In this document: in pieces, positions 16,607-64,000 of the stretch
How positions within the stretch are numbered: position 1 is the stretch's first letter
Layout of the letters: the number at the start of each line of letters is the position of its first letter
Source of the DNA: Quercus robur
Taxonomy: Eukaryota > Streptophyta > Magnoliopsida > Fagales > Fagaceae
Assembly (NCBI RefSeq): GCF_932294415.1
Contig: NC_065535.1
Coordinates: 12,184,282-12,248,281 of the forward strand
DNA length: 64,000 nucleotides
Reading direction: 5' to 3'
Notes under the pieces: generated by a model
Told to the model about the DNA's origin: nothing
The model's database searches: none
The model's input: the letters and a program-made list of their open reading frames with translations, nothing else
Made by a program: the position numbers and the translations under genes

Positions 16607-20777
<4,171 letters not shown>

Positions 20778-43829: not shown

Positions 43830-44778
43830 GGGAAAGCATGTTAGAAACTGGGGTAATAAAGAAAGTCGGTGCGTTCTTACCGATGAAAGAAAGAGAGAGT
43901 CGGTGAATGAGAGGAACATTTTTCATGTTTTGCTGTGTACGAGAAAGAATTCTTGGAGGGCTCGCAAGTGCAACCAGTCATTGTCATTGTGGTTTTCAGC
44001 AATTAAAAAGATAATGCAGGTAACGGAAATCTAATAGTTTACCTTTTCTCATTTGTAGTCATATTTATTATCGAATCTAATCTAATATATATATTTTTTT
44101 TGAGAAGAAAATCTACTCTAACATTTTAAAATCCCTGTTGAAATTATGCCATTTGTGTATTATAAAAAAAATTGGGAATTATAAATAAATAATAATAAAA
44201 AAGTCCTTTGTGATGTTTAGAGTTTTCCGTGATTGACATGTGGCAATTTTTAAGCCTACTTAGAATTATAAGTCAATATTTGTTACACATCAAGTTTTTT
44301 TCTACAAATTATGTTCAATATGTATTCTATACTATCTCCTAAAAAATAGTAGGCGAAAACACTATTTAAGTCTTTACATTTTAAGGTTACAATCAATTTA
44401 GTCCTTACATTTTGGTAACAGTCAATTTAGTTCTTATATTTTGATAATAGTCAATTTGGTCTTTGTTATTTTTAACTTACAGTCAATTTGGTTTCTACCG
44501 TTAACTCATTAACAGAAATTGTCTACATGACAGACGGAGTGTATAGTTAGCGCACTTGAATCTTACACGGCCAATAAAATAATTTTTTAAAATTTTAATT
44601 AACATTAAAAAAGGTCCACATTAGCATTTGAATTACTGAAAGTCCATGTCAGAAAACAAAAACTTAAAATAAAAAATTCATATCAAACTCATCAAAAAGA
44701 ATAAAATACTTCATAAACAAAAATTAATTTAATCTTCATGAACACAAAAATAAATAAATAAATAAATAGGAAAAACAC

Positions 44779-45262
44779 TGAAGATGATAAAATATTGGGC
44801 CTGATGGCTTACCTTAATGGGCCTGACGGACTGGGTCCCTTGGGCCTGTGTGATGATGGTCCTAGCTTCGAAGGCCCATCACTGACATTGTAAGGGCCCA
44901 TGATCCGAAACGTCCATAGCCCAGAAAGACCCCATGATCCGGAAATGGGAATCCTTGCTCACCACGCTTAGGAGAATTGGGAGTAGAGTCCCACATTGAA
45001 AAGATGTGGAAACCAAAAAGGAAAAGTCAACCCTTTAACACTATAAAAGGCATAATACCCCCAGAAATCGAGGTACGCTTTAATTGACCCTCTCTAACGC
45101 TCTAAGTAAAACATAACAAATCTAACTTGACCGTCGGAGAGCCTTTGGCCGGCACCACACCGGTGCTCCCTGAAGGACGTCCGTCGATTGTTCTTGTCGT
45201 GCAGGTTCGATTCGAGTCGCGAGTACGGTGTGACCTATTGGTGACAATTTTCGACGTCATCA
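44779..45262 (+). repeat. 5' LTR of the Tat element
   Basis: Starts TGAAGATGATAAAATATTGG and ends TTTCGACGTCATCA. A TATA box (CACTATAAAAGGCATAAT) lies near 45040, so the sense transcript should start near 45070. Confidence 0.95.
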
Positions 45263-45282
45263 GTTGGCGCCGTGTGTGGGGA
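45263..45282 (+). other. primer-binding site of the Tat element
   Basis: GTTGGCGCCGTGTGTGGGGA abuts the LTR. The TGGCGCCGT core is complementary to the 3' end of plant tRNA-Asp; beyond it the match weakens, as is usual in this lineage. Confidence 0.75.
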
Positions 45283-45312
45283 AAATCGACGTTTCCTAGA
45301 CAAAAGAGTTAC

Positions 45313-46720
45313 ATGGTACTCACACGCTCGATGGCAACCACAAATGACGTCCAGGAAGAAGCCCCTACGACTGCCCTTGAGAGACAGGTCAAGACGCTCG
45401 CTGCAGCCATGGAGCGCCTCACCAAACAAAACCACGACCTGGTAGAGCAGCTGAATCAAAAGAGTGCGGCGGTGAATAGCCAAGGAGAAGATCAAGAAGG
45501 GAACAGTGAGGAAAGGAGAAATAATGACGGACAACAGGAGAGTAACGCCCCGAGCAAACAAGTGCGACGGGACGCTAGCATCCCATCAGTGACGGATACA
45601 GCTCCACAACCCATCATCGCGGAGATGCAGGCGATGAAGGAACAGATGGAAGTCCTGATGAACGCTCTCAAGGGGCGAGTGTCTAGCGATCTTGACGACC
45701 TTGTCAACCGGACTAACTCGCCATTTACGGCGTCCGTCAATTCCTTCCCCCTGCCGAGTAAGTTCCGCATGCCGAGTATGGACAGTTATGACGGAATCAA
45801 AGATCCACTCGATCACCTAGAGACCTTCAAGACCCTGATGCACCTTCAGGGAGTGGCAGACGCAATTATGTGTAGGGCATTCCCTACAACCCTGAAGGGC
45901 GCGGCAAGGATTTGGTTCAGCCGACTAACACCAAACTCAATCGGCACCTTCAAGGAGCTGAGCGCTCAGTTCACTACGCACTTCATCGGAGGGCATCGGT
46001 ACAAGAAATCAACAGCTTGTTTGATGAATATCAAGCAGAGAGAGGAGGAGACGCTACGGGCCTACATATCACGCTTCAATAAAGAAGCGCTATCGATCGA
46101 CGAAGCCGACGACAAGATATTGGTGGCAGCGTTCACGAACGGGCTGAAGGGGGGTAAGTTTTTGTTCTCCCTATACAAAAACGACCCAAAGACCATGTCA
46201 GAGGTGCTTTACAGGGCCACCAAGTACATGAACGCTGAAGACGCACTGTTAGCCCGAGAAGACAGACCCAAGAAAAGGGACAGACAAGAGGACCCTTGAC
46301 AGGACCAGGGGCGGAAGAGAGGACGGATGGGAGATCGAAGGGAGGAGAGACACCCAAAACCAATGGGCGGAAGGTTCACAAGTTTCACTCCGTTGACCGC
46401 CCCGATAGACCAAGTCCTAATGCAGATTAAGGACGAAGGATCCCTGACGTTTTCGGGAAAGCTGAAGAGTGATCCCAACAAAAGGTCCAGAGACAAATAT
46501 TGCCGCTTCCACCGTGACCATGGTCACGACACGGCCGACTGCTATGATTTGAAGCAACAAATCGAAACCCTTATCCGACAAGGGAAATTGAAGAAGTTCG
46601 TCAGTAAGGAGAGAGCGGATCAACCCCCACAAGAACAACACCCCCGCCGAGAGAACGAGCGACCAAGGCCCCCATTGGGGGATATAAGGATGATAATTGG
46701 AGGAACAGGTGCGGCCGGAT
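45313..46720 (+). other. gag region of the Tat element
   Basis: The segment includes an N-terminal coiled coil (LAAAMERLTKQNHDLVEQLN), the retrotransposon gag core (DPLDHLETFKTLMHLQG; RIWFSRLTPNSIGTFKEL; LMNIKQREEETLRAYISRFN) and a degenerate zinc-knuckle-like C-x2-H-x2-H-x-H-x4-C motif near 46500-46540. Gag forms the virus-like particle. Confidence 0.9.
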
Positions 46721-46849
46721 CGTCAAAAAAGGCTCGCAAAACATATCTTCGGATGGTACAGAATGTTCAATTGGCAGGCACAGTGCCGAAGATGGCAAGA
46801 AGGGAAGGCCCTATTATTGGGTTCTCGGAAGAGGATGCGAGACGCCTAC

Positions 46850-49800
46850 ACCATCCACACGACGATGCCCTCGTCGTCACCTTGCGGGCAGGCGACTACA
46901 ACATCCACCGAGTGTTGGTCGACAACGGTAGTTCGGCCGACATCTTGTATTATCCGGCGTTCCAACAAATGAGGATTGATAGGGAGCTGCTGATACCGAC
47001 AAACGCCCCACTCGTTGGTTTCGGAGGGAGTAGGATATTCCCTTTGGGCGCAGTCACGTTATCGGTGACAGTAGGAGATTACCCTCAACAAATCACCAAG
47101 GACGTAACATTCTTAGTGGTCGATTGCTCGTCAGCCTACAATGCTATTATCGGACGACCAACGCTCAACTCCTGGAAGGCGGCAACATCAACTTACCACC
47201 TGATGATCAAGTTCCCAACGGAGTATGGGGTAGGAGAGCTACGCGGAAGTCAAATTGCCGCACGAGAATGCTACGTAGCTATGATGGAGGTGGAAGACCA
47301 GATCCAGGCCTTGAACATAGAAGAACACCGAACGACGGCAGAACCTACAGAAAAGCTAGAGGAAATAACTCTCGACAGTTCCAATCCAGACCGAACCACC
47401 AGGATCGGAACGCTTGCCAAACCCGCAATCCGTCAAGAGCTCGTAGCTTTCCTGAGAAGCAATAAGGATGTGTTCGCCTGGAGCTATGACGATATGCCAG
47501 GAATCGATCCCTCGGTCATGGTACATAAGTTGAATGTGTTGCCCTCGTTTCCACCCGTCCGACAGAAGAAGAGAGTATTCGCCCCGGAACGAGACCAAGC
47601 AATCGCGGAAGAGGTCCGCAAACTCCAAGAGGCAAGCTTCATTAGGGAGGTCTACTACCCCGATTGGCTGGCGAATGTGGTAATGGTGAAGAAAACGAGC
47701 GGCAAATGGCGGATGTGCGTGGACTTCACAGATCTTAACAAAGCATGCCCCAAAGATAGCTATCCCCTTCCAAGGGTCGACATCCTAGTCGACTCGACGG
47801 CTCAACACCAGTTGCTAAGTTTCATGGATGCTTTCTCGGGTTATAACCAGATCCGCATGCACGAGGACGATCAGGAGAAGACTTCGTTTGTAACCAGCCA
47901 AGGACTCTTCTGTTACAGAGTAATGCCATTCGGCCTGAAGAATGCAGGGGCAACATACCAGAGACTAATGAACAAGATGTTTGCACAGCAAATCGGGAGG
48001 AATGTCCAAGTCTATGTCGACGACATACTGGTGAAGAGCCGGAAGGAGGAAGACCACTTGGAAGATCTGAAGGAAACATTCGGCACACTTCGATCCTACA
48101 ACATGAAACTCAATCCGGGAAAGTGCGCATTCGGTGTAACGGCGGGCAAATTCCTAGGATTCATGGTATCTCAAAGGGGGATTGAAGCTAACCCGAACAA
48201 AATCCGAGCCATAATGGAGATGGCCCCCCCGAGAAACGTGAAGGAAGTACAGAGTCTTAACGGCAAGGTAGCGGCACTGAATAGATTCGTGTCGAGAGCG
48301 ACGGACAAGTGTTTACCCTTCTTTCGAACATTGAAAAAGTCTTTCAAGTGGACGGACGAGTGTCAGCGAGCCTTCGAGGAGTTAAAAACCTATCTATCTT
48401 CACCACCTTTGCTGAGCCCCTCGCAACCAGGTGAAGAACTCTTCCTCTATTTGGCTGTCTCCACGGCGGCCGTCAGCGCGGCCTTAATCAGAGAGGACGA
48501 CAGGGCACAGAAGCCCGTGTACTACGCCAGCCGGGCGCTCCGCGGTGCCGAGGAAAGATACCAACCTATGGAGAAACTCGCTTTTGCGTTGGTCACGGCG
48601 GCTCGCAAGCTCAAACCCTACTTTCAAGCCCATACCGTGAACGTGATGACCGACAAGCCCTTGCGAAGGGCGCTGAGTAATCCTGAAGCCGCGGGTCGAC
48701 TGACGCTGTGGGCAATAGAATTAAGTGAGTTTGACATCAAGTACCGTCCACGTGTGGCCATCAAAGGACAAGCTGTAGCCGACTTCATAGCTGAGTTTAC
48801 GCATGACGCGGACAAGGGGGCAGAAGAACCCCCCAGTGGAACGTCTACACCGACGGATCATCCAATAAGCGAGTTGGAGGAGCCGGCATAGTATTGCTGT
48901 CACCTGAAGGAGACAAGATTGAATGTATGGTCCGTCTCGACTTCCCCATTACCAACAATGAAGCAGAATACGAAGCGGTAGCAGCAGGACTCGACCTAGC
49001 TAAAGCCGCCGGAGCTGAAAGTGTGGCCGTGCATTGCGACTCTCAAGTCGTCACCAATCAAGTAAACGGAGATTATGAATGCAAAGGGGAAAGGTTGAAG
49101 AGATATCTTGATCAAGTGAGGGCAAGAGTCGACGGGCTAAAAGCAACGTTCGTCCAGATCCCCAGGGGAGACAATGAGCTCGCTGATCGGCTAGCCAAAG
49201 CCGCTTCAGCAGAACATATGATAACACCGGGTAATGTACTTCCCTTTGTTCAAATCTTTCCGCTAATAGACCCCGACAACATGCAGGAGATACGCTCCGA
49301 AAGAAACTGGACTACGCCGATAGCTTCATACTTAAAGGACGGGATATTGCCTGAAGAGAAGGAGGCAGCGAGAAAGCTCAAAGTCCGAGCGGCAAGGTTC
49401 GTCTTGATAAAAGACATTCTTTACAAGAGAGGTTTCTCCCGTCCTTACCAAAGATGTCTCGGGGTTGAAGAGGCAGACTACGTGATGAGGGAAGTACACG
49501 AAGGAATATGCGGGAACCATTCTGGATCGCGGTCGTTGGTGTACAAACTGTTACGAGCTGGATACTACTGGCCGACCATGCAAAAGGATGCTGAGTCCTA
49601 TGTTAAAAGATGCGACAAATGCCAGAGGTTCAGCAATTTTATCGGACAGCCAGCTGAAGAGCTAACCCCCATAACGGCTCCATGGCCGTTCGCTCAGTGG
49701 GGACTGGACATCATGGGACCTTTCCCAACGGCGATAAGGCAGCTAAAGTTCTTGGTAGTGGGCATTGACTACTTCACGAAATGGGTAGAAGCGGAAGCCT

Positions 49801-50543
49801 TGGCCACCATTACAGAAAAGAACATTAGAAGTTTTGTCTGGCGGAACATAGTATGTAGGTTTGGTATTCCTAGGGTCCTTGTCTCAGATAACGGGAGGCA
49901 GTTCGATAACGGCCCCTTCCGTGATTTCTGCTCACAGCTAGGAATAAAAAACCACTACTCATCCCCCGCCCATCCTCAGGCTAACGGTCAGGTTGAGGTC
50001 ACAAACCGATCCCTGCTAAAGATTATCAAGACTCGGCTCGAGGGGGCAAAGGGCATATGGCCAGAAGAACTGCCAAGCATACTGTGGGCATATAGGACAA
50101 CGGCGAGGACTCCGACAGGAGAGACACCGTTTCGACTGACATACGGGAGCGAGGCAGTCATCCCAGCGGAAGTTGGGCTCACAAGCTACAGGGTTCACAA
50201 CCACGACGAGGGAAGGAATGACGAATCCATGAGGCTACAGCTGGACCTTATAGATGAGGTCAGGTCGGCAGCAGAACAAAGGATCGCTAGATACCAGGAT
50301 CGGATGTCCAGACATTTCAACTCCCGGGTCCGACAAAGAAGCTTCCAAGTAGGAGACCTCGTACTCAAGAGGGTCATGGGTACAACAAGAGACCCTACAC
50401 AGGGAAAACTCGGCCCCAACTGGGAAGGACCCTACAGAGTTACGTCGTGGAAAAGGAAAGGGACATACCACCTGGAGACAATAGACGGAGAAAAGCTACC
50501 ACATCCGTGGAATGCCGAGCACTTGAGGAAATACTACCAGTGA
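46850..50543 (+). other. pol region of the Tat element (PR-RT-RH-aRH-INT)
   Basis: Domains in order: aspartic protease (VLVDNGSSADIL, near 46914); reverse transcriptase with WRMCVDFTDLN (near 47707) and the catalytic YVDDIL (near 48014); RT-linked RNase H (YYASRALRGAEERY, MTDKPLRRAL); a second, archaeal-type RNase H (FPITNNEAEYEAVAAGLDLA, near 48940); and an integrase with a zinc finger (CDKCQRF), WGLDIMGPFP and SDNGRQFDN (near 49890). The C-terminus is typical (NWEGPYRVTSWKRKGTYHLE). The paired RNase H domains place the element in the Tat clade. Confidence 0.93.
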
Positions 50544-50762
50544 TAGCGACACGACAACCAGTTTCTCTTTTAAGACTTTTTGGCATTATTAACTTTTTTT
50601 GGCACTGTTTAACTACTTTTGCTACAATATTGTCGTGCCTTTTTTAAGCCCAAGGGGGCAGGCACTTTTCCATTACGCATTTCTATAATCAGATGCAATT
50701 TTGATCTTCTACTCGAATGTATGTCATTGCAATTGTCCACAAAGTTAACGGAAACGATAGAA

Positions 50763-51200
50763 GTCCACAAGATGGACGGATTATCCTACAGGGACGATCC
50801 CCCTAAGTCCACAAGGTGGACGGATCATCCTACAGGGATGATAACCATAAGTCCACAAGATGGACGGACGCAATATGAAGTCCACAAGATGGACGGATCG
50901 TCCTACAGGGACGGTCACCCGAAGTCCACAAAGTGGACGGATCACTAAGGTGATGAAACATAGGTCCACAAAGTGGATGGATCACTAAGGTGATGAAACG
51001 TGAGTCCACCAAGTGGACGGATCACTAAGGTGATGAAACATAGGTCCACAAAGTGGACGGATCACTAAGGTGATGAAACATAGGTCCACAAAGTGGACGG
51101 ATCACTAAGGTGATGAAACATAGGTCCACCAAGTGGACGGATCACTAAGGTGATGTAATTAGTCCACAAAATGGACAGATCACTAAGATGTTGAAATACA
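50763..51200 (+). repeat. 40-44-bp tandem repeats, each with a GTCCAC/GTGGAC hairpin
   Basis: About eleven units begin GTCCAC, at 50763, 50807, 50851, 50880, 50924, 50964, 51004, 51044, 51084, 51124 and 51162. From 50924 the period is exactly 40 bp (GTCCACAAAGTGGACGGATC - ACTAAGGTGATGAAACATAG). Each unit carries the 6-bp inverted pair GTCCAC-nnn-GTGGAC. They lie between pol and the antisense frames, where Tat elements commonly hold tandem repeats. Confidence 0.92.
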
Positions 51201-51605
51201 TGAAATAAAGTCCTTGAGATGGATGGACTGTCCTACATGAAATAAAGTCCCAAGGTGGACGGATATAATAGATGGACGTTTTCGCAAAGTGGACGGTCCG
51301 CGTAATAAACCTCTCAAAACAGACGGAAAAGGAAAATCCTCACCGATGTAAATGCTCAATCAACACAAGATAACAAGTCCGCAATGTGGACGGATCATCA
51401 CAGATTAACAAATATTCTCACAAAAATACTCCCTCAAGAAGGTAGACGGAGCTTTAAACAGAGCACCAAACAATTATAAAAAGCATGTGAACTTTAAGCC
51501 AAAAGCCCCAAAGGCAAATGTTCAATACAATTAAAAAGGACGGTTTGTCTTAAAAAATGAATAAAAAAGAAGGACGGATTGTTCACAAAATAAAGTACAT
51601 ATGCA

Positions 51606-53746
51606 TCAATCTTTCTTTTCTTCAGCAACTGGGACATCCTTCGACGGGGCGGACTCTCTGTCTCCTTGAGCAGCACCGTCTCCAAAAAGGTCCTCCGTAT
51701 TTTCGGAGGCGACGGGGAGGGCAGAAGTCTGGGCTTGGTCCTCAAGTTTGACCATTGTCAAGTCCAGCTCTGGATAAGCCTTCTTGACTTGACGGAGGGA
51801 ATCATCGAATCCTTGGAGGAAGGAGTCCGACAGCTCGCCCAAACAGGACTCCGAGCATCGGTACTCCTCGACGGCTGCCACTTTAGCCTGACGGAGCTCT
51901 TCTTTGAGTTGTTTTATCTCAGCTTCTTTATTCTCTATGACCGTCAGCGAAGTGGCCGTCTTCTCCTCCAGCTCCTTCCTCGCCTGCTCAGAAAGCTCCA
52001 GCTTCTTCTCCATCTTGGACCTCCATCTCTGAAGTTGTCCGAGCTCTTCCTCCGTCTGCTGCGCCTTCGCGCGCACCCGGTCCAAGGTACTCTCACGGTT
52101 GAGACACCGGTCAAGTAGTCCCTTCATCATGACCAAGGACTGCAAATAGAAAAGAGACCGTCACATAATGTAAGTAACAGGAAGAATGAAAAATAAAAAC
52201 TTATTTGACAAACATAACCAACCTGAGCGACGGCGAAGAGGCCCGTCTCCCCCATGGCCTCCGTCGAATGGTTTCCCAGGTCTTCATAGTCTTCTGCCGT
52301 GATGATGGACGACAGCTTCTCCAATGCATACTTGGAGTCATCACGAAGAAGGGAAGGAGGTCTCTCTTGCTTACCGTCTGGGACCGTCATCAATCCCTTA
52401 CCCTTCCCCTGCTTCGCTGGGGTGACGGCCTTGTTACCCTCAGCCATTAAGCCAACCACAGGTTCAAGAGAGACCTTTGGTTGCTTAAAGGGACGGTCGG
52501 ATTTTGTCGTCAGTTTCCTTTTAGGGACTGAAGCTGATGCCTTAGGAACCTCCTCGCCGGATTCCCTCTTCTTGACGGCTTGGGACTTGATCAAAGCTCT
52601 CCTCTTTGCGTCATCCATCTCTGCAAATAATGACGGATGAAATTAAAACAAAATAAAGCATAGTAAATGACAAAGTAAAGTTGACGGGCTTACGTTTGTG
52701 AACTCGCTCGTCGTATCTTATCGCTTCTTGGGTGGGCTCAGGACCGTCACAGTACCAATGAATGGTCCTCGGGTTCACCAACTTAGCCCAAGTCCTTTCC
52801 TCCGGCGTAGTTTTCTTGCAGACCTTTTCAAGGAAGCTAAACTCCTCGAGGCTGACTTGTGGGCGCCGTCTACCTGCAAAGAAAAATGATCAAGATATAC
52901 ACATATAACTGGACGGATATGAAAGGCAGTACAAAATTTAGACGGATGCATACGTGTCTGATTTATAACTGCCCAAGTTGTGTCGACGGGCATGTACTCC
53001 GTCTCCCCTGGATGGTTCATCCATCTGTCACCCTCCAGGAAGAAGTACCGACTCTTCCAGTCTCTATTTGAGTCTGGGGTCTCAAAGATCACCTTCAACA
53101 AGGGGCTCCGACTGGCAAAACTGTACATCCCCCTTGATCCAGAAATCTCGTCTGGACGGTAACAGTGAAGAAATTCACGGACCGTCAATTTCCTTTCCCC
53201 GTTTGACATTGCACCGTAAAGAATCTCCATGGCTATGAAGACCCTCCAGGCGTTAGGGGATATCTGGGTGACGGACAACCCCAGATACTGCAAGAGTTCC
53301 CTATGAAGTGTAGAAAGCGGGAATCGAAGTCCAGCCTTCAATGCCTGCTCGTACACTCCTACACCGTCTACCCCTTCGTAATAACACTTCTCCGACACAT
53401 ATGGTAGACGGATGGAGACATAGTCTGGGATTTGGAAGTTGGTCCTGAAGGTGCTGAAATGTCTCTCCCTGATGACGGATGTAAACCTATGCACAGTCCA
53501 CTCTGGCAACATGATGAACTGCCTTAGTCCATCAGCGCCTACAACGGACTCCAGTTGTTGATCCCCGTCGTCATCGGAACCCTCTACTTCGACTATCTCC
53601 ACATCCTCATTTGTTGAGGATGAAGAGGAGGCAGACGGACTCCTATCTTCGCCGGGGCTCTCTTGGTCTTTGTGACCGGACGGGTATACATCCTCGTATT
53701 CCGTCCCATCACGAACCACCGACTGGTTACTTGACGCACTAGACAT
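51606..53746 (-). other. antisense gene-like region (aORF) of the Tat element
   Basis: Three long minus-strand open segments lie in this region between pol and the 3' LTR. The first (near 52900-53746) has an acidic N-terminus (EIVEVEGSDDDGDQQ) and a folded-looking domain (FRTNFQIPDYVSIRLPY; RELLQYLGLSVTQISPNAW; FEtpdSNRDWKSRYFFLEGD). It resembles the gag-like 'putative plant transposon protein' common in plant genomes. The last (near 51606-52145) is a heptad-rich coiled coil (QQTEEELGQLQRWRSKMEKK). Extra antisense ORFs, probably spliced, are known from Tat/Retand elements. Function unknown. Confidence 0.8.
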
Positions 53747-54006
53747 TTCCTACAATTGACAATGAAACCTAAGACTGACGGGTTTGAAAGTGTTGACGGG
53801 TATGGAAAGCCTAACAACAACGCATGGACGGAAATGTAACTTGACTAGAGTAAATTAAAAGCACTTACCAAACTTAGCAGAGGATAGGTGACGGTTGGCG
53901 TAATCAACAGATATTTGTCCTCGACGGGCTGCTCTGACAAGGCTGACGGCTTCGCTCTGACAAATGTATTCTGAGTGAAAATTGAAAAATGAGAGAGTGA
54001 GGCGCC

Positions 54007-54017
54007 TTATATATATA
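54007..54017 (-). promoter_or_regulatory. TATA box of the Tat antisense unit
   Basis: TATATATATAA on the minus strand, about 260 bp before the first antisense ATG (53746) and about 300 bp inside the 3' LTR. A CACGTGGC-type box lies just upstream on the minus-strand reading (near 54080). Activity is inferred. Confidence 0.6.
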
Positions 54018-54295
54018 GGAGGTGCACGGAAGACGAAGCGACACTTCGATCCCATACAACGGCCATTCAGAGAGCGACACGTGGCATGCGTAATAAATGC
54101 TGACAGCCTGTCCGTACGTAACAACAGACTTGTACCCGTCATGTCTCCGTCAACGGGATGAATCTTACTATGACGGGTTGACCCATCTGGAACCGTCGTT
54201 CTATCTTGCCTGATTCCGTTATAGATTGACCGTCATACCCATACGTAAGGACCATCACCCCATTGATCCTTTGACCCAAAAGGTGACGGACCATT

Positions 54296-54312
54296 GGGGT
54301 GAAGGGGGCAAC
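54296..54312 (+). other. polypurine tract of the Tat element
   Basis: GGGGTGAAGGGGGCAAC directly precedes the 3' LTR start (TGAAGATG), the expected place for plus-strand priming. Confidence 0.75.
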
Positions 54313-54796
54313 TGAAGATGATAAAATATTGGGCCTGATGGCTTACCTTAATGGGCCTGACGGACTGGGTCCCTTGGGCCTGTGTGATGATGGTCCTAGC
54401 TTCGAAGGCCCATCACTGACATTGTAAGGGCCCATGATCCGAAACGTCCATAGCCCAGAAAGACCCCATGATCCGGAAATGGGAATCCTTGCTCACCACG
54501 CTTAGGAGAATTGGGAGTAGAGTCCCACATTGAAAAGATGTGGAAACCAAAAAGGAAAAGTCAACCCTTTAACACTATAAAAGGCATAATACCCCCAGAA
54601 ATCGAGGTACGCTTTAATTGACCCTCTCTAACGCTCTAAGTAAAACAGAACAAATCTAACTTGACTGTCGGAGAGCCTTTGGCCGGCACCACACCGGTGC
54701 TCCCTGAAGGACGTCCGTGGATTGTTCTTGTCGTGCAGGTTCGATTCGAGTCGCGAGTACGGTGTGACCTATTGGTGATAATTTTCGACGTCATCA
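54313..54796 (+). repeat. 3' LTR of the Tat element
   Basis: The same 484 bp as the 5' LTR, with about four substitutions and no length change. Confidence 0.95.
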
Positions 54797-55817
54797 AACA
54801 CAATTTGTAATCTTGAACAGTTGAACTCATTTAATCAAAATTCGTTATCTTAATACAAAATTTATGTACAGATTATTTAAAAAAACAATCAACTACATCA
54901 ATTCAACCAAAAATATATTTAAACATGTAATTCAACTAATGTACATATTTCAAACAATGTACAACCAAAACCCAGATTTGCAATAATCCACGTCTGGATA
55001 TGACAACCTAGATTCCCTAAACATTATCTTGATTTTCATTTTGAGAATATTTGGAAAAATCACAACATCAACGGGCACCTAAATTTCAACAGCTTCGTGC
55101 AATATTTGGAACAAGTGAAAGGGAAATGAAAACCCAAATCTGGGCATTTGTTCTTCTTTTCCTAACCAGCTTGTGACTCGGCCAAGAGAGAGACTTGCTT
55201 ATTGATTCCCTGAAATCAAATCGCACAAATCAACAGAAATCTAATCTTTTCTAACCTTCAATCTTCAACCCAAACCACAAAAATCCCTCACTTCTTTCTT
55301 TTTTTTTTCTTCTATTTTTTGGTTTCTCTCATCTATGCAAATCTCGTGACGGAGCGAGCACCACACCACCACAATTAGATCCAAACCCACAAATGCTGTG
55401 ATAGCATGAAGACTAGGTCTAGGTTGCAACTGGATTGAGTTTGCCATATGGGTAGCTGGGTTAGTTTTAATTGCGATGGATCTAATTTGTATGAAAAAAT
55501 TTCGGGTTTGTTGGTGAGAACTCATTGAACAGAGAAGATATGAGTTTTGATTTTGATGCATATGGGATAATCTATTTTTAATGTTAATTCAATTTTTTTT
55601 TAAAAATTATTTTATTGGCCATGTAAGATTCAAGTGTGCCTACTATGCACCCTGTCTGCTACGTAGACATTTTTCGTTAGTGAGTTAACAGTAGGGAGCC
55701 AATTAACTGTAAGTTAAAATTAACAAGGACTAAATTGACTACTACCAAAATGTAGGAACTAAATTAACTGTGACCTCAAAATGTAGGGACTAAAATGGTG
55801 TTTTTACCAAAATAATA

Positions 55818-56210: not shown

Positions 56211-59115
56211 TTTTTTTTTTTTTTTTTGAAACATATAACAGAATTTCATTACTACGGACAACTGTCCAAGGAACTTACATCAAACAGAATCTGATGTTCT
56301 ATTAAGGGAGGAATATCCTCTACCCATATTACACTATCTTTCACATTTATTGCATTCTTAGCTAGCAAGTGCGCTGCTTCGTTAGTGTTTCTTCTAGTAT
56401 GCATAGCCTTCCAAGAGTTGAACTGCAGCAGAAAACGTTTCAGACCTTCGACAATCTTCAGAATGGGCAGAGCAGGAGGGTTGCAACCATTTAGAGCTTG
56501 TATAACTTGTTGGGAGTCTCCTTCCACCACAATATCTTTCAGTCCAAGGTCCCAAGCTAAATAAATACCCGCTTCCGTAGCTTTTGCTTTTGCTTCAATA
56601 GCCCTCAATGGAAGTTCAACTTTCTTGCACAAAGCTCCCATCATCTCCCTTTGGTCATTTCTAATAACCACCCCGAAACCACAAGAGCCCCTGTTGTTGA
56701 AGACCGCTGCATCTGTATTGACCTTGTATGTTCCTTTAGGAGGAAGACTCCAGTGCTTGAGTCTAGGAGCAAATGAAGCACCTATACAACGGACCGGTAT
56801 AGCAGAACACAGTTCAAGCTCATATTTTTGAGCTTCCCCTGCAATGGTTTTCCCCTGTTTACAAACTTCCCCATGCCGAACTGCGTTTCTGTTGTTCCAC
56901 AAACCCCATGCCGTGATAGCAAAAGCATCCCAATTCATCTCCCTCGGTGACTCAAGGAGCAATCAAACCATGTCAAGAAATTCCTTTGAGGGTTGGATAA
57001 GCTTGTCAAGCCTAAATTTTGTTTTAGCCCAGGTTTCCTTAGCAATAACACAACCCCACAAAGCATGGCTAGAAGACTCACTTTCACCACAAAAGTCACA
57101 CTTGTCCTCTGTTAACACCTTTCGGTGTAGCAGGCACTGCTTCGTGGGGAGCACATTCCTACAAGCTTTCCACATGAAATGCTTTATTTTATTCGGACAC
57201 TTTAAGTTCCAAACAACCTTCCAAATCGCTGTCATTTTGGAATTGTCTGAGCTGCCTGGGCTTTCCTTTCTTCCCTTGAGATCATCAAGGTATTTAGCTG
57301 CAACTTTATGTGCGCTCTTAACAGTGAAGATGTCGTTTGGGGACTTAGCCCACACCTGGGAGTCCGATGGGTTCATGGGGCTAATAGGGATGCTAAGGAT
57401 AGCCTTTGCTTTGTAAGGGAGAAAAGAGCGTCGTATCAAGGCGACATCCCACTCCGCTCGTTCCTGCACAATTAGGCTTGCCACTTTCACCTCACTATCC
57501 ATAGAGGTTCTTGGAGTTACTATTCTGGTTGAATCCGAGGAGGGAATCCATTTCTCCCCCCATATCTTAATGCTTCTCCCATTACCAACAACCCATTTGG
57601 TCCCCTCCTTTATCACAGGTATAGCAGCCACCATGCTTCTCCATATGTAGGAAGGATTTTTCCCCACTTGAGCTTCCATGAAGGAGGAATTAGCAAAATA
57701 CTTTGCTTTAAGAACTCTGTGGGTCAAAGAGTTTGGGCTTTGCTGTATTCTCTAGCCTTGCTTGGCTAGGAGGGCAAGGTTGAAGGCTCTCAAGTCCCTA
57801 AAATCCAACCCCCCCTCTGCCTTTGGTTTGCACAGCTTTTGCCACGACACCCAAGCAATCTTTCTTGCTTTGTCTTTCTTTCCCCACCAGAAACCACTCT
57901 CCATTGACGCTATCTCAGAGCAAAGAGAGTCTGGGAGCTTGAAACAATTCATGGTATATGTTGGTGTGGCTTGCGTAACCGCCTTTATAAGGATTTCCCT
58001 ACCCGCATTAGACAACAATCTCCCTTTCCAACCCGCTATCTTCCTGCCCACTTGGTCTTTAATACGATTAAAGGCCTTTTTCTTTTCTCTTCCAACCATT
58101 GGAGGTAATCCCAAGTGCTTTTCATGTTGTTTGACAATCTGAGCTCCAAAGGTATCCTTCAAAAAATTCTGAATATCTTCCTTTATGTTCTTGCTGAAAA
58201 ATAGCGAGGTTTTTTCCCTATTCAGCTTTTGTCCCGACTCCTTTTCATAGACTTCCAGTACCGAGGCTACTTGTCTGCACTCCTCCATAGTTGCTCTACA
58301 AAAGATGATGCAATCATCCGCAAAAAATAGGTGCGAAATTGAAGGGGCAAGTCTGCTCACAGCCACCCCTCTTATCAACCCCACGGCTTCCTTTCTCCTC
58401 AGCAGAGCTGTTAACCCCTCGGCGCACAATAAGAACAAATATGGGGAAATAGGATCCCCTTAACGCAGCCCCCTAGATTGAGTAATTGTGCCCCTTGGTT
58501 CCCCATTAATGAGTACCGAAAAAGATGCCGTGGTCACGCACATCATAATTAGCGAAATCCATTTTTCTTCAAAACCCATTTTCCACATCATCGACCCAAG
58601 ATAGGCCCACTCTACACGGTCATAGGCTTTAGACATATCCAACTTGATAGCCATGGACCCAACCTTCCTCTTTTTTCTTTTAGCAATAGAGTGCATGGTT
58701 TCGAAAGCCACAACTACATTGTTTGTTATAAGCCTTCCCGGTACAAAGGCGCTCTGTGCTTCATTGATCACATTGTGCAAAATTTTCTTCAGTCTATTCG
58801 CAAGGACCTTTGATATTAACTTGTAAATCACATTGCAGAGGCTGATGAGGCTGTAATCAGTTATCTTTTGGGGGGTTTTTGGTCTTAGGAATCATGCAAA
58901 TATAAGTATTATTGATACCCCTAGGCATTATACCTGTATTAAGGGCTTGTAATACACAATTTTGTACACTAGGACCAACAATATCCCAATATTTTTGGTA
59001 AAAGATAGGGGACATACCGTCGGGGTCCGGTGCTTTTGTTGGGTGCATTTGTTTGAGCGCACTCCAGACTTCCTCTGCCCTGAACTCCTTTAGAAGTGCC
59101 TGGTTCATTCTGGGG
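56211..59115 (-). mobile_element. 5'-truncated L1-type LINE with 10-bp TSD
   Basis: TCTCCACTAG occurs exactly at 56201-56210 and 59116-59125. Between them is a minus-strand non-LTR element whose poly(A) tail appears as a T-run from 56211. It begins inside the N-terminal part of the reverse transcriptase, so ORF1 and the endonuclease were never inserted. At 2.9 kb it is much shorter than a full plant L1 (about 6-7 kb). The clean target duplication and few coding defects make it young. Confidence 0.93.
56252..59108 (-). pseudogene. LINE ORF2 fragment: RT, zinc-binding domain, RNase H
   Basis: Domains in order: RT N-terminus (KQMHPTKAPDPDGMSPIFYQ, near 59050); RT core ([46 protein letters not shown] near 58330); an [11 protein letters not shown] block; the zinc-binding RT C-terminal domain (zf-RVT-like: MWKACRNVLPTKQCL, near 57180; CDFCGESESSSHALWGC); and RNase H (KVNTDAAVFNNRGSCGFGVV, near 56730; EGDSQQVIQALNGCN). 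One frame change lies between about 58857 and 58831. Three in-frame stops lie at about 58460, 57750 and 56963, where relatives have Gln, Trp and Trp. Each is explained by a single G:C-to-A:T transition. Confidence 0.9.
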
Positions 59116-62298: not shown

Positions 62299-62622
62299 AA
62301 ATATATTGTGTTCTCATAAACGTAGACGCGTTGCCAAATCAAGTAAAAATTTTCAATATTGATTTCTCTCTATTTTTAACTAAATTTGCATGCACAAAAA
62401 TTATCCACAATTTCCTTATCTGCTATGCTTTTCCCCAATGAGGGGGAGTTGAGTCCTAAGTTCTAACTTCTTTAAAGGGCCGTGGACCTATGGCCAACTC
62501 TGTTGACAGACAAAAATCTAAACACCCACCAAATAACACGGCAAAATTAGTATTAAAAAATCTATTGGTGTCAAGCTTAGGACAATTGGATGACCCATTT
62601 GACCTTTCATTATTATTTTTAA

Positions 62623-64000
62623 GGCGAAAAGCACATTTTGGTCCTTATATTTTCACACGATTCCTACTTTGGTTCCTAAATTTTATTTTTATTGCTTTTA
62701 GTCCTTGTTTAGAAAAACGCCTTCTGTTTTAGTCCTTTCTGTCAGTGCCGTTAGGGCACTGACCTACGTGGCAAACGGAATTATTAAAATAATAATAAAA
62801 AATTTTATTTTGTCATTAAAAAATGCCAAGTCAGCATTTAAATTTAAAAAAAATTATTTATTAAATTTAACTAAATAAAAAAATAAAAAACAGAAAAAAA
62901 AAAAATCACATTAATTAAGATTGAAGTGTGTCTTGAGCAAGAACACCAAGAACACATACACAAACCCAGAAATTAAAATTCAAAAATTAAAATTTTCAAA
63001 ATCATCACATACACATGAAAGTTTGGAAATGTTCCAATCGGGGCCACGTTAAAGACAAAATAAACTGCAAAAACAACCCAAACACACACTGTACATGACA
63101 ACAACATAAAGGAAAAAAAAACCCAGTAATGCTTTAAACTTTAAAAAGAAAACCCAGATATAGATTCAAAAAAAAAAAAAAAATTAAGTACCCAAAGCTT
63201 CCAATTGGTGCTTCTTGCTACTGGAACCAGGCGGTCTGCCCCTAGCTTTCTTGAACGAAGTGGGTGGCGCTGATCCTCCAGAAGGAAGCGATGTTGGAGC
63301 CCAGGGAGGAGGAGTTGGAGCTGGATGAGGAGATGAAAACCCACCTCCACCACTTGACTGAGTCTGAGCTACAGGTACGGGCTAAGCCGTAGGAGTGAGA
63401 CCCAAAGCCATAGAGCCATCTGGGCCATACTTTTTGGGTCTCCCTCTTTTCTTCTTAGCTTACTCGCCGCCAGTCATACTCCCCATATTCACATTCACAT
63501 TCACAGCCCCACCACCACCACTTCCACCATCAAGCTGGTAAGTCGGTGATGTTGCTGTTGCTGCTGTTGCTGTCGTCGTAGCAGCTGTGGCATTTGTTGC
63601 GGTAGAGATGGGCTTGTAAACGGCGTTGCCGTCGGAACTAAAACCCAAGCGCATGTTCTGAACCAGTGGCTGTGCCGGCAGCGGCGACGACGACTGTTGC
63701 TGTTGTTGATGTTGTTGTTGTTGTTGTTGAAGTGCACCGACGACGGCGAAAATTTTAATTTTTGAATTTTAATTTCTGGGTTTGTGTATGTTTTCTGGTT
63801 GTTCTTGCTCAAGACATACTTCAATCTTAATTAATGTGATTTTTTATTTTTATTTCTGTTTTTTATTTTTTTATTTAGTTAAATTTAATAAATTATTTTT
63901 TTAAATTTAAATGCTGACTTGGCATTTTTTAATGACAAAATAAAATTTTTTATTATTATTTTAATAATTCCGTTTGCCACGTAATTTAGTGCCCTAACGG
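62623..64000. mobile_element. Pack-MULE with ~380-bp inverted ends (cut by window end)
   Basis: The left arm (62623-about 63000) starts GGCGAAAAGCACATTTTGGT, close to the other Mutator-like ends in this window. Its inverted counterpart starts at about 63750 and runs to the window end, where CCGTTTGCCACG...GTGCCCTAACGG pairs with 62749-62780. By symmetry the element should end about 125 bp beyond the window. Between the arms lies a captured AHL gene fragment in minus orientation. The right target duplication cannot be seen. Confidence 0.9.
63184..63750 (-). pseudogene. captured AT-hook (AHL) gene fragment
   Basis: The minus strand carries the N-terminal half of an AT-hook motif nuclear-localized (AHL) protein. 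In order: Q-rich ALQQQQQQHQQQQQSSSP, the family block MRLGFSSDGNAVYKPI, GGGSGG-type Gly runs, first AT-hook KKKRGRPKKYGPDGSMAL (near 63400-63450), a Pro/Ser linker, and second AT-hook KKARGRPPGSSSKKHQLEALG (near 63185-63250, written from its two halves). It stops before the PPC/DUF296 domain that AHLs need for trimerisation. In-frame stops at 63460-63462 (after GGE) and 63382-63384 (after PTA) break it; the frame closes at 63184-63186. Intact AHLs bind AT-rich DNA in the nucleus. This copy is a transposon-borne remnant. Confidence 0.88.

Follow-up and report, generated by a model that had tools for sequence, protein, structure and literature searches.

How did a stretch of AHL coding sequence with two AT-hooks come to lie between long, AT-rich inverted arms in the oak genome, and does it still do anything there? 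The arrangement occupies positions 62623..64000 of the 64,000-nucleotide stretch of Quercus robur DNA analyzed here (the window), and it is very probably a non-autonomous Mutator-like element (MULE) with long terminal inverted repeats (TIRs), about 1.5 kb in size, that would have moved in trans and contains a decayed AHL exon-1 fragment with the start of an intron, that is, a Pack-MULE. According to this model, about 750 bp of genomic DNA would have been taken up from a clade-B, type-II AHL gene, the cargo comprising much of exon 1, including both AT-hooks, and the beginning of intron 1, carried on the minus strand. A transposase acting in trans would then have moved the element, and the AHL piece would now be a decaying fragment with no coding role. 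If the element is transcribed, the read-through RNA would fold mainly into a hairpin of one arm against the other that feeds silencing. The sequence-only reading had also proposed a Pack-MULE with a captured AHL piece, and such a capture, of a fragment with two hooks within a MULE-like element that has long TIRs, remains the best reading. The arms and an AHL-like frame with both hooks are present; the right arm leaves the window at 64000.

Local alignment of 62748-62997 with the reverse complement of 63748-64000 gave 241 identical columns out of 254, the others being 8 mismatches and 5 gaps. The score was 439, whereas the left side after dinucleotide shuffling (500 replicates) averaged 31 and never exceeded 57. 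The left TIR (62623..62997, plus strand) is paired within the window over 62748-62997; its outer 125 bp (62623-62747), whose partner would fall beyond the window, is extrapolated to the GGCGAAAAGCAC end. The right TIR (63748..64000, minus strand) can be followed for 253 bp before the window edge stops it, and if the element is symmetric its end is predicted near 64125, about 125 bp past the window, which gives the predicted size of about 1.5 kb. Inverted arms had been claimed at about 380 bp each: the inversion stands, and the length on both sides is an extrapolation, with 253 bp of the right arm visible. MULE TIRs are typically 100 to 500 bp long and their target site duplications 9 to 11 bp (PMC3310237). 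The 253 bp visible on the right already amount to a long TIR of the Pack-MULE kind, with outer ends that lie beyond the pairing in the window. Flanking the left end is a candidate target site duplication, the 9-mer TATTTTTAA (62614..62622), which is AT-rich like the tomato target duplications described in PMC3310237 and of which a second copy would be expected beyond the right end. MULE arms are not necessarily identical at insertion, which keeps their divergence from serving as a measure of age.

The interior between the arms spans 750 bp (62998-63747) rather than the 567 bp given earlier. More than 567 bp was probably captured: past a GT, the rest of the interior is rich in T on the coding strand, as the beginning of an AHL intron would be. 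GC content was 0.267 and 0.206 in the two arms, 0.535 in 63184-63747, 0.301 in 62998-63183, and 0.376 in the window. The AHL exon-1 fragment (63192..63747, minus strand, with its exon end at 63192 an estimate) is a single frame with no frameshift and two in-frame stops. Read from 63747 to 63184, this frame passes through a Gln-rich stretch, a stretch with NMRLGFSSDGNAVYKP, hook 1, hook 2, and KKHQLEALG; we judge the NMRLGFSSDGNAVYKP-containing stretch upstream of hook 1 and the QLEALG ending to be AHL-like. Both hooks had been said to be encoded, and two RGRP hooks do lie in the one minus-strand frame, at 63427-63456 and 63223-63252. Hook 1 (63427..63456, minus strand), of type II, reads KKKRGRPKKY in the frame translation and scored 17.4 bits against Pfam AT_hook, just at the cut-off of 17.4. 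Hook 2 (63223..63252, minus strand), KKARGRPPGS, has the RGRPPGS core and scored 11.9 bits in the same search, under that cut-off.

Comparison with published motifs singles out the first hook. Table 1 of PMC11169806 gives, as motif 6, the type-II hook motif found in radish AHLs; scanned ungapped with BLOSUM62 in six frames of the window, it matched 63394-63456 with 16 of 21 identities and a score of 88, and the next place in the window scored 28. The radish type-I hook motif (motif 5) scored 24 at hook 2 versus 28 elsewhere in the window, so it did not single out hook 2. In type-II AHLs the type-II hook is N-terminal of the type-I hook, and where an AHL has both, its type-I hook varies more than in AHLs with a type-I hook alone; the family as a whole is specific to land plants (all according to PMC4209074).

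The search for a PPC (DUF296) domain covered radish AHL motifs 1, 2, and 3. We take motifs 1 and 3 to be parts of PPC; motif 2 is named as PPC in PMC11169806. These ungapped six-frame scans turned up no PPC-like stretch in the 64,000-nucleotide window; in them the three motifs reached at best 28 to 29 against self scores of 105 to 106, and the earlier statement that the piece has no PPC domain is borne out to this extent. In these terms the cargo at 62998-63747 is an AHL fragment, not an AHL gene.

Where the exon-like sequence runs out, the frame reads GAA GCT TTG G|GTACTT, with the GT at 63191-63190, and the following stretch (62998-63183) is 53% T on the minus, coding strand. We infer, from this base composition and the GT, that the exon ends at 63192 and that intron 1 starts at 63191, so that 62998..63191 (minus strand) would be the probable start of the AHL intron and the stop at 63184-63186 would be intronic. 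Intron sequence in the cargo, if this is correct, would mean that it was copied from genomic DNA and not from mRNA.

Could the fragment still make a protein? The two in-frame stops noted earlier were located in the AHL frame at 63460-63462 and 63382-63384, the third being the one at 63184-63186 in the presumed intron. Met codons of this frame occur at 63652-63654, 63484-63486, 63475-63477, and 63409-63411. The first three meet the stop at 63460-63462 ahead of hook 1; the fourth, the only one between the two stops, lies past hook 1 and is stopped at 63382-63384 ahead of hook 2; and no Met stands between that stop and the third at 63184-63186. From these positions it follows that no ATG in the AHL frame reads into either hook. 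Seven ATG frames on 62623-64000, four of them minus-strand and three plus-strand, reach at least 25 amino acids, and none contained a hook; the longest, 64 amino acids, ends at 63460, just ahead of hook 1. The suggested translation of a transcript into a DNA-binding peptide was accordingly rejected, as the hooks are out of reach of any ATG in their frame. Such a peptide is unlikely, and would need a non-ATG start or splicing.

An RNA-level role is a separate matter, and the leading alternative leaves the identity of the element unchanged and gives it a function, with a transcript from a promoter in a TIR regulating the parental AHL gene via small RNAs. It is compatible with a captured AHL piece in a Pack-MULE, and a review describes maize Helitrons, Pack-MULEs, and Sirevirus elements as siRNA reservoirs able to silence related elements and donor genes (PMC13317346). 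However, no ATG in the AHL frame reaches the hooks, and the AHL part falls in the loop of the predicted hairpin with the arms in the stem, and we consider a regulatory function unlikely. In the fold predicted for an RNA that reads through the element on the plus strand, the right arm is the partner of 243 of 250 positions in the left arm. Because this fold puts the arms in the stem and the AHL piece in the loop, arm-derived siRNA would be a more direct product than AHL-derived siRNA, and hairpin-fed silencing of the element itself is the likeliest predicted fate if it is transcribed. Putative small RNAs from the fragment against the parent AHL gene, as the sequence-only reading suggested, are possible. 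That a hairpin RNA gives rise to secondary small RNAs from the AHL loop which tune the parental gene is very improbable; if true, a family of chromatin proteins would have a regulator that is carried on a transposon.

The structure might also have arisen with no transposition at all, by a DNA-repair event in which an AT-rich repeat was copied in inverted orientation around an AHL fragment, one either present beforehand or taken in as filler. Inverted arms by themselves are no proof of transposition, and the right end of the structure lies beyond the window. This origin is nonetheless quite improbable, as the outer left arm resembles one end of a second element, at 44352-55808, which has a near-perfect 9-bp flanking repeat. 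The left end of the AHL element, GGCGAAAAGCACATTTTGGTCC, scored 73 against the right end of the second element, compared with a maximum of 46 in 300 mononucleotide shuffles; against its left end the score was 56, equal to the shuffle maximum of 56 and not significant by itself. The apparent likeness to MULE ends is one-sided, because only one of the two ends of the second element scores above shuffles. The 9-mers flanking the second element, AAAATAGTA and AAAATAATA, are identical except at one position, and a match of 8/9 or better occurs in 27 of 87,300 local 9-mer pairs. An origin in place, as a local AHL pseudogene with MULE ends or solo TIRs inserted separately on either side, could account for a fragment broken by two stops but is highly unlikely, given that the arms stand in inverted register, that their alignment breaks off at an identical arm base in each (62997 and 63748), and that the three motifs found no PPC-like stretch in the window, which ends inside the right arm.

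The captured AHL fragment in a Pack-MULE can be compared with known systems for its left end and cargo, the right end falling beyond the window. Like the Pack-MULEs of rice, tomato, and maize that illustrate transduplication, the oak element has long inverted ends and a captured gene fragment that is richer in GC, lacks a frame long enough to encode a transposase, and is comparable in size, at a predicted 1.5 kb or so. No stop-to-stop frame of more than 109 amino acids overlaps 62600-64000, so that, judged from ORF lengths alone, this interval holds no transposase-sized frame inside the element, and about 125 bp is all that the part beyond the window is predicted to add. Tomato Pack-MULEs have size peaks at 1000 to 1200 bp, with a minor one at 1300 to 1400 bp, and the predicted 1.5 kb is somewhat above them (PMC3310237). 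Among these, the PM-ZIBP family likewise consists of MULEs with a captured gene fragment, there from a zinc-ion-binding protein gene, and has AT-rich target duplications like the candidate 9-mer here; the members in the described part of the family span 944 to 1372 bp, and 13 of 14 copies have tandem TIRs, in contrast to the single TIRs seen here (PMC3310237). With type-II (clade-B) AHL genes the fragment shares two AT-hooks, a type-II hook followed by one of the RGRPPGS type, and an apparent intron start after hook 2, but it is without the N-terminus and PPC and has two in-frame stops. In place of the published consensus RGRPRKY (PMC11169806), hook 1 has RGRPKKY.

Gene capture as a general phenomenon is already well described in plants, and the oak element would be one more case. 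An AT-hook cargo may be unreported in Pack-MULEs, as a search of the open-access literature, with its broader results examined in part, found none. Exact scans of viral contigs and of prokaryote genomes for the 22-base left end came back empty, which is what plant DNA would be expected to show, and a search of 40000-64000 against Rfam gave no matches at the gathering score.

The structure at 44352-55808 is a second long-TIR MULE-type element, the ends of which align with each other (score of 137, shuffle maximum of 51), and by subtraction of its nested insert it would measure about 1.4 kb. The insert, at 44779-54796, is a young Ty3/gypsy-type LTR retrotransposon with LTRs identical at 482 of 486 positions, AACAC on both sides, and gag, reverse transcriptase, RNase H, and integrase domains. 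An antisense ORF within it (52778-53749) scored 25.3 bits against Transposase_28, just under the cut-off of 26.2, and a tandem array with a 40-bp period lies at 50884-51198 inside the same retrotransposon. At 56252-58891, on the minus strand, a retrotransposon-like frame is cut by in-frame stops into four stretches, of which the two scanned match reverse transcriptase (57755-58459) and RNase H-like RVT_3 (56255-56962); this is probably a broken non-LTR element. A piece of a hexokinase gene (Pfam Hexokinase_2) is located at 20403-20774.
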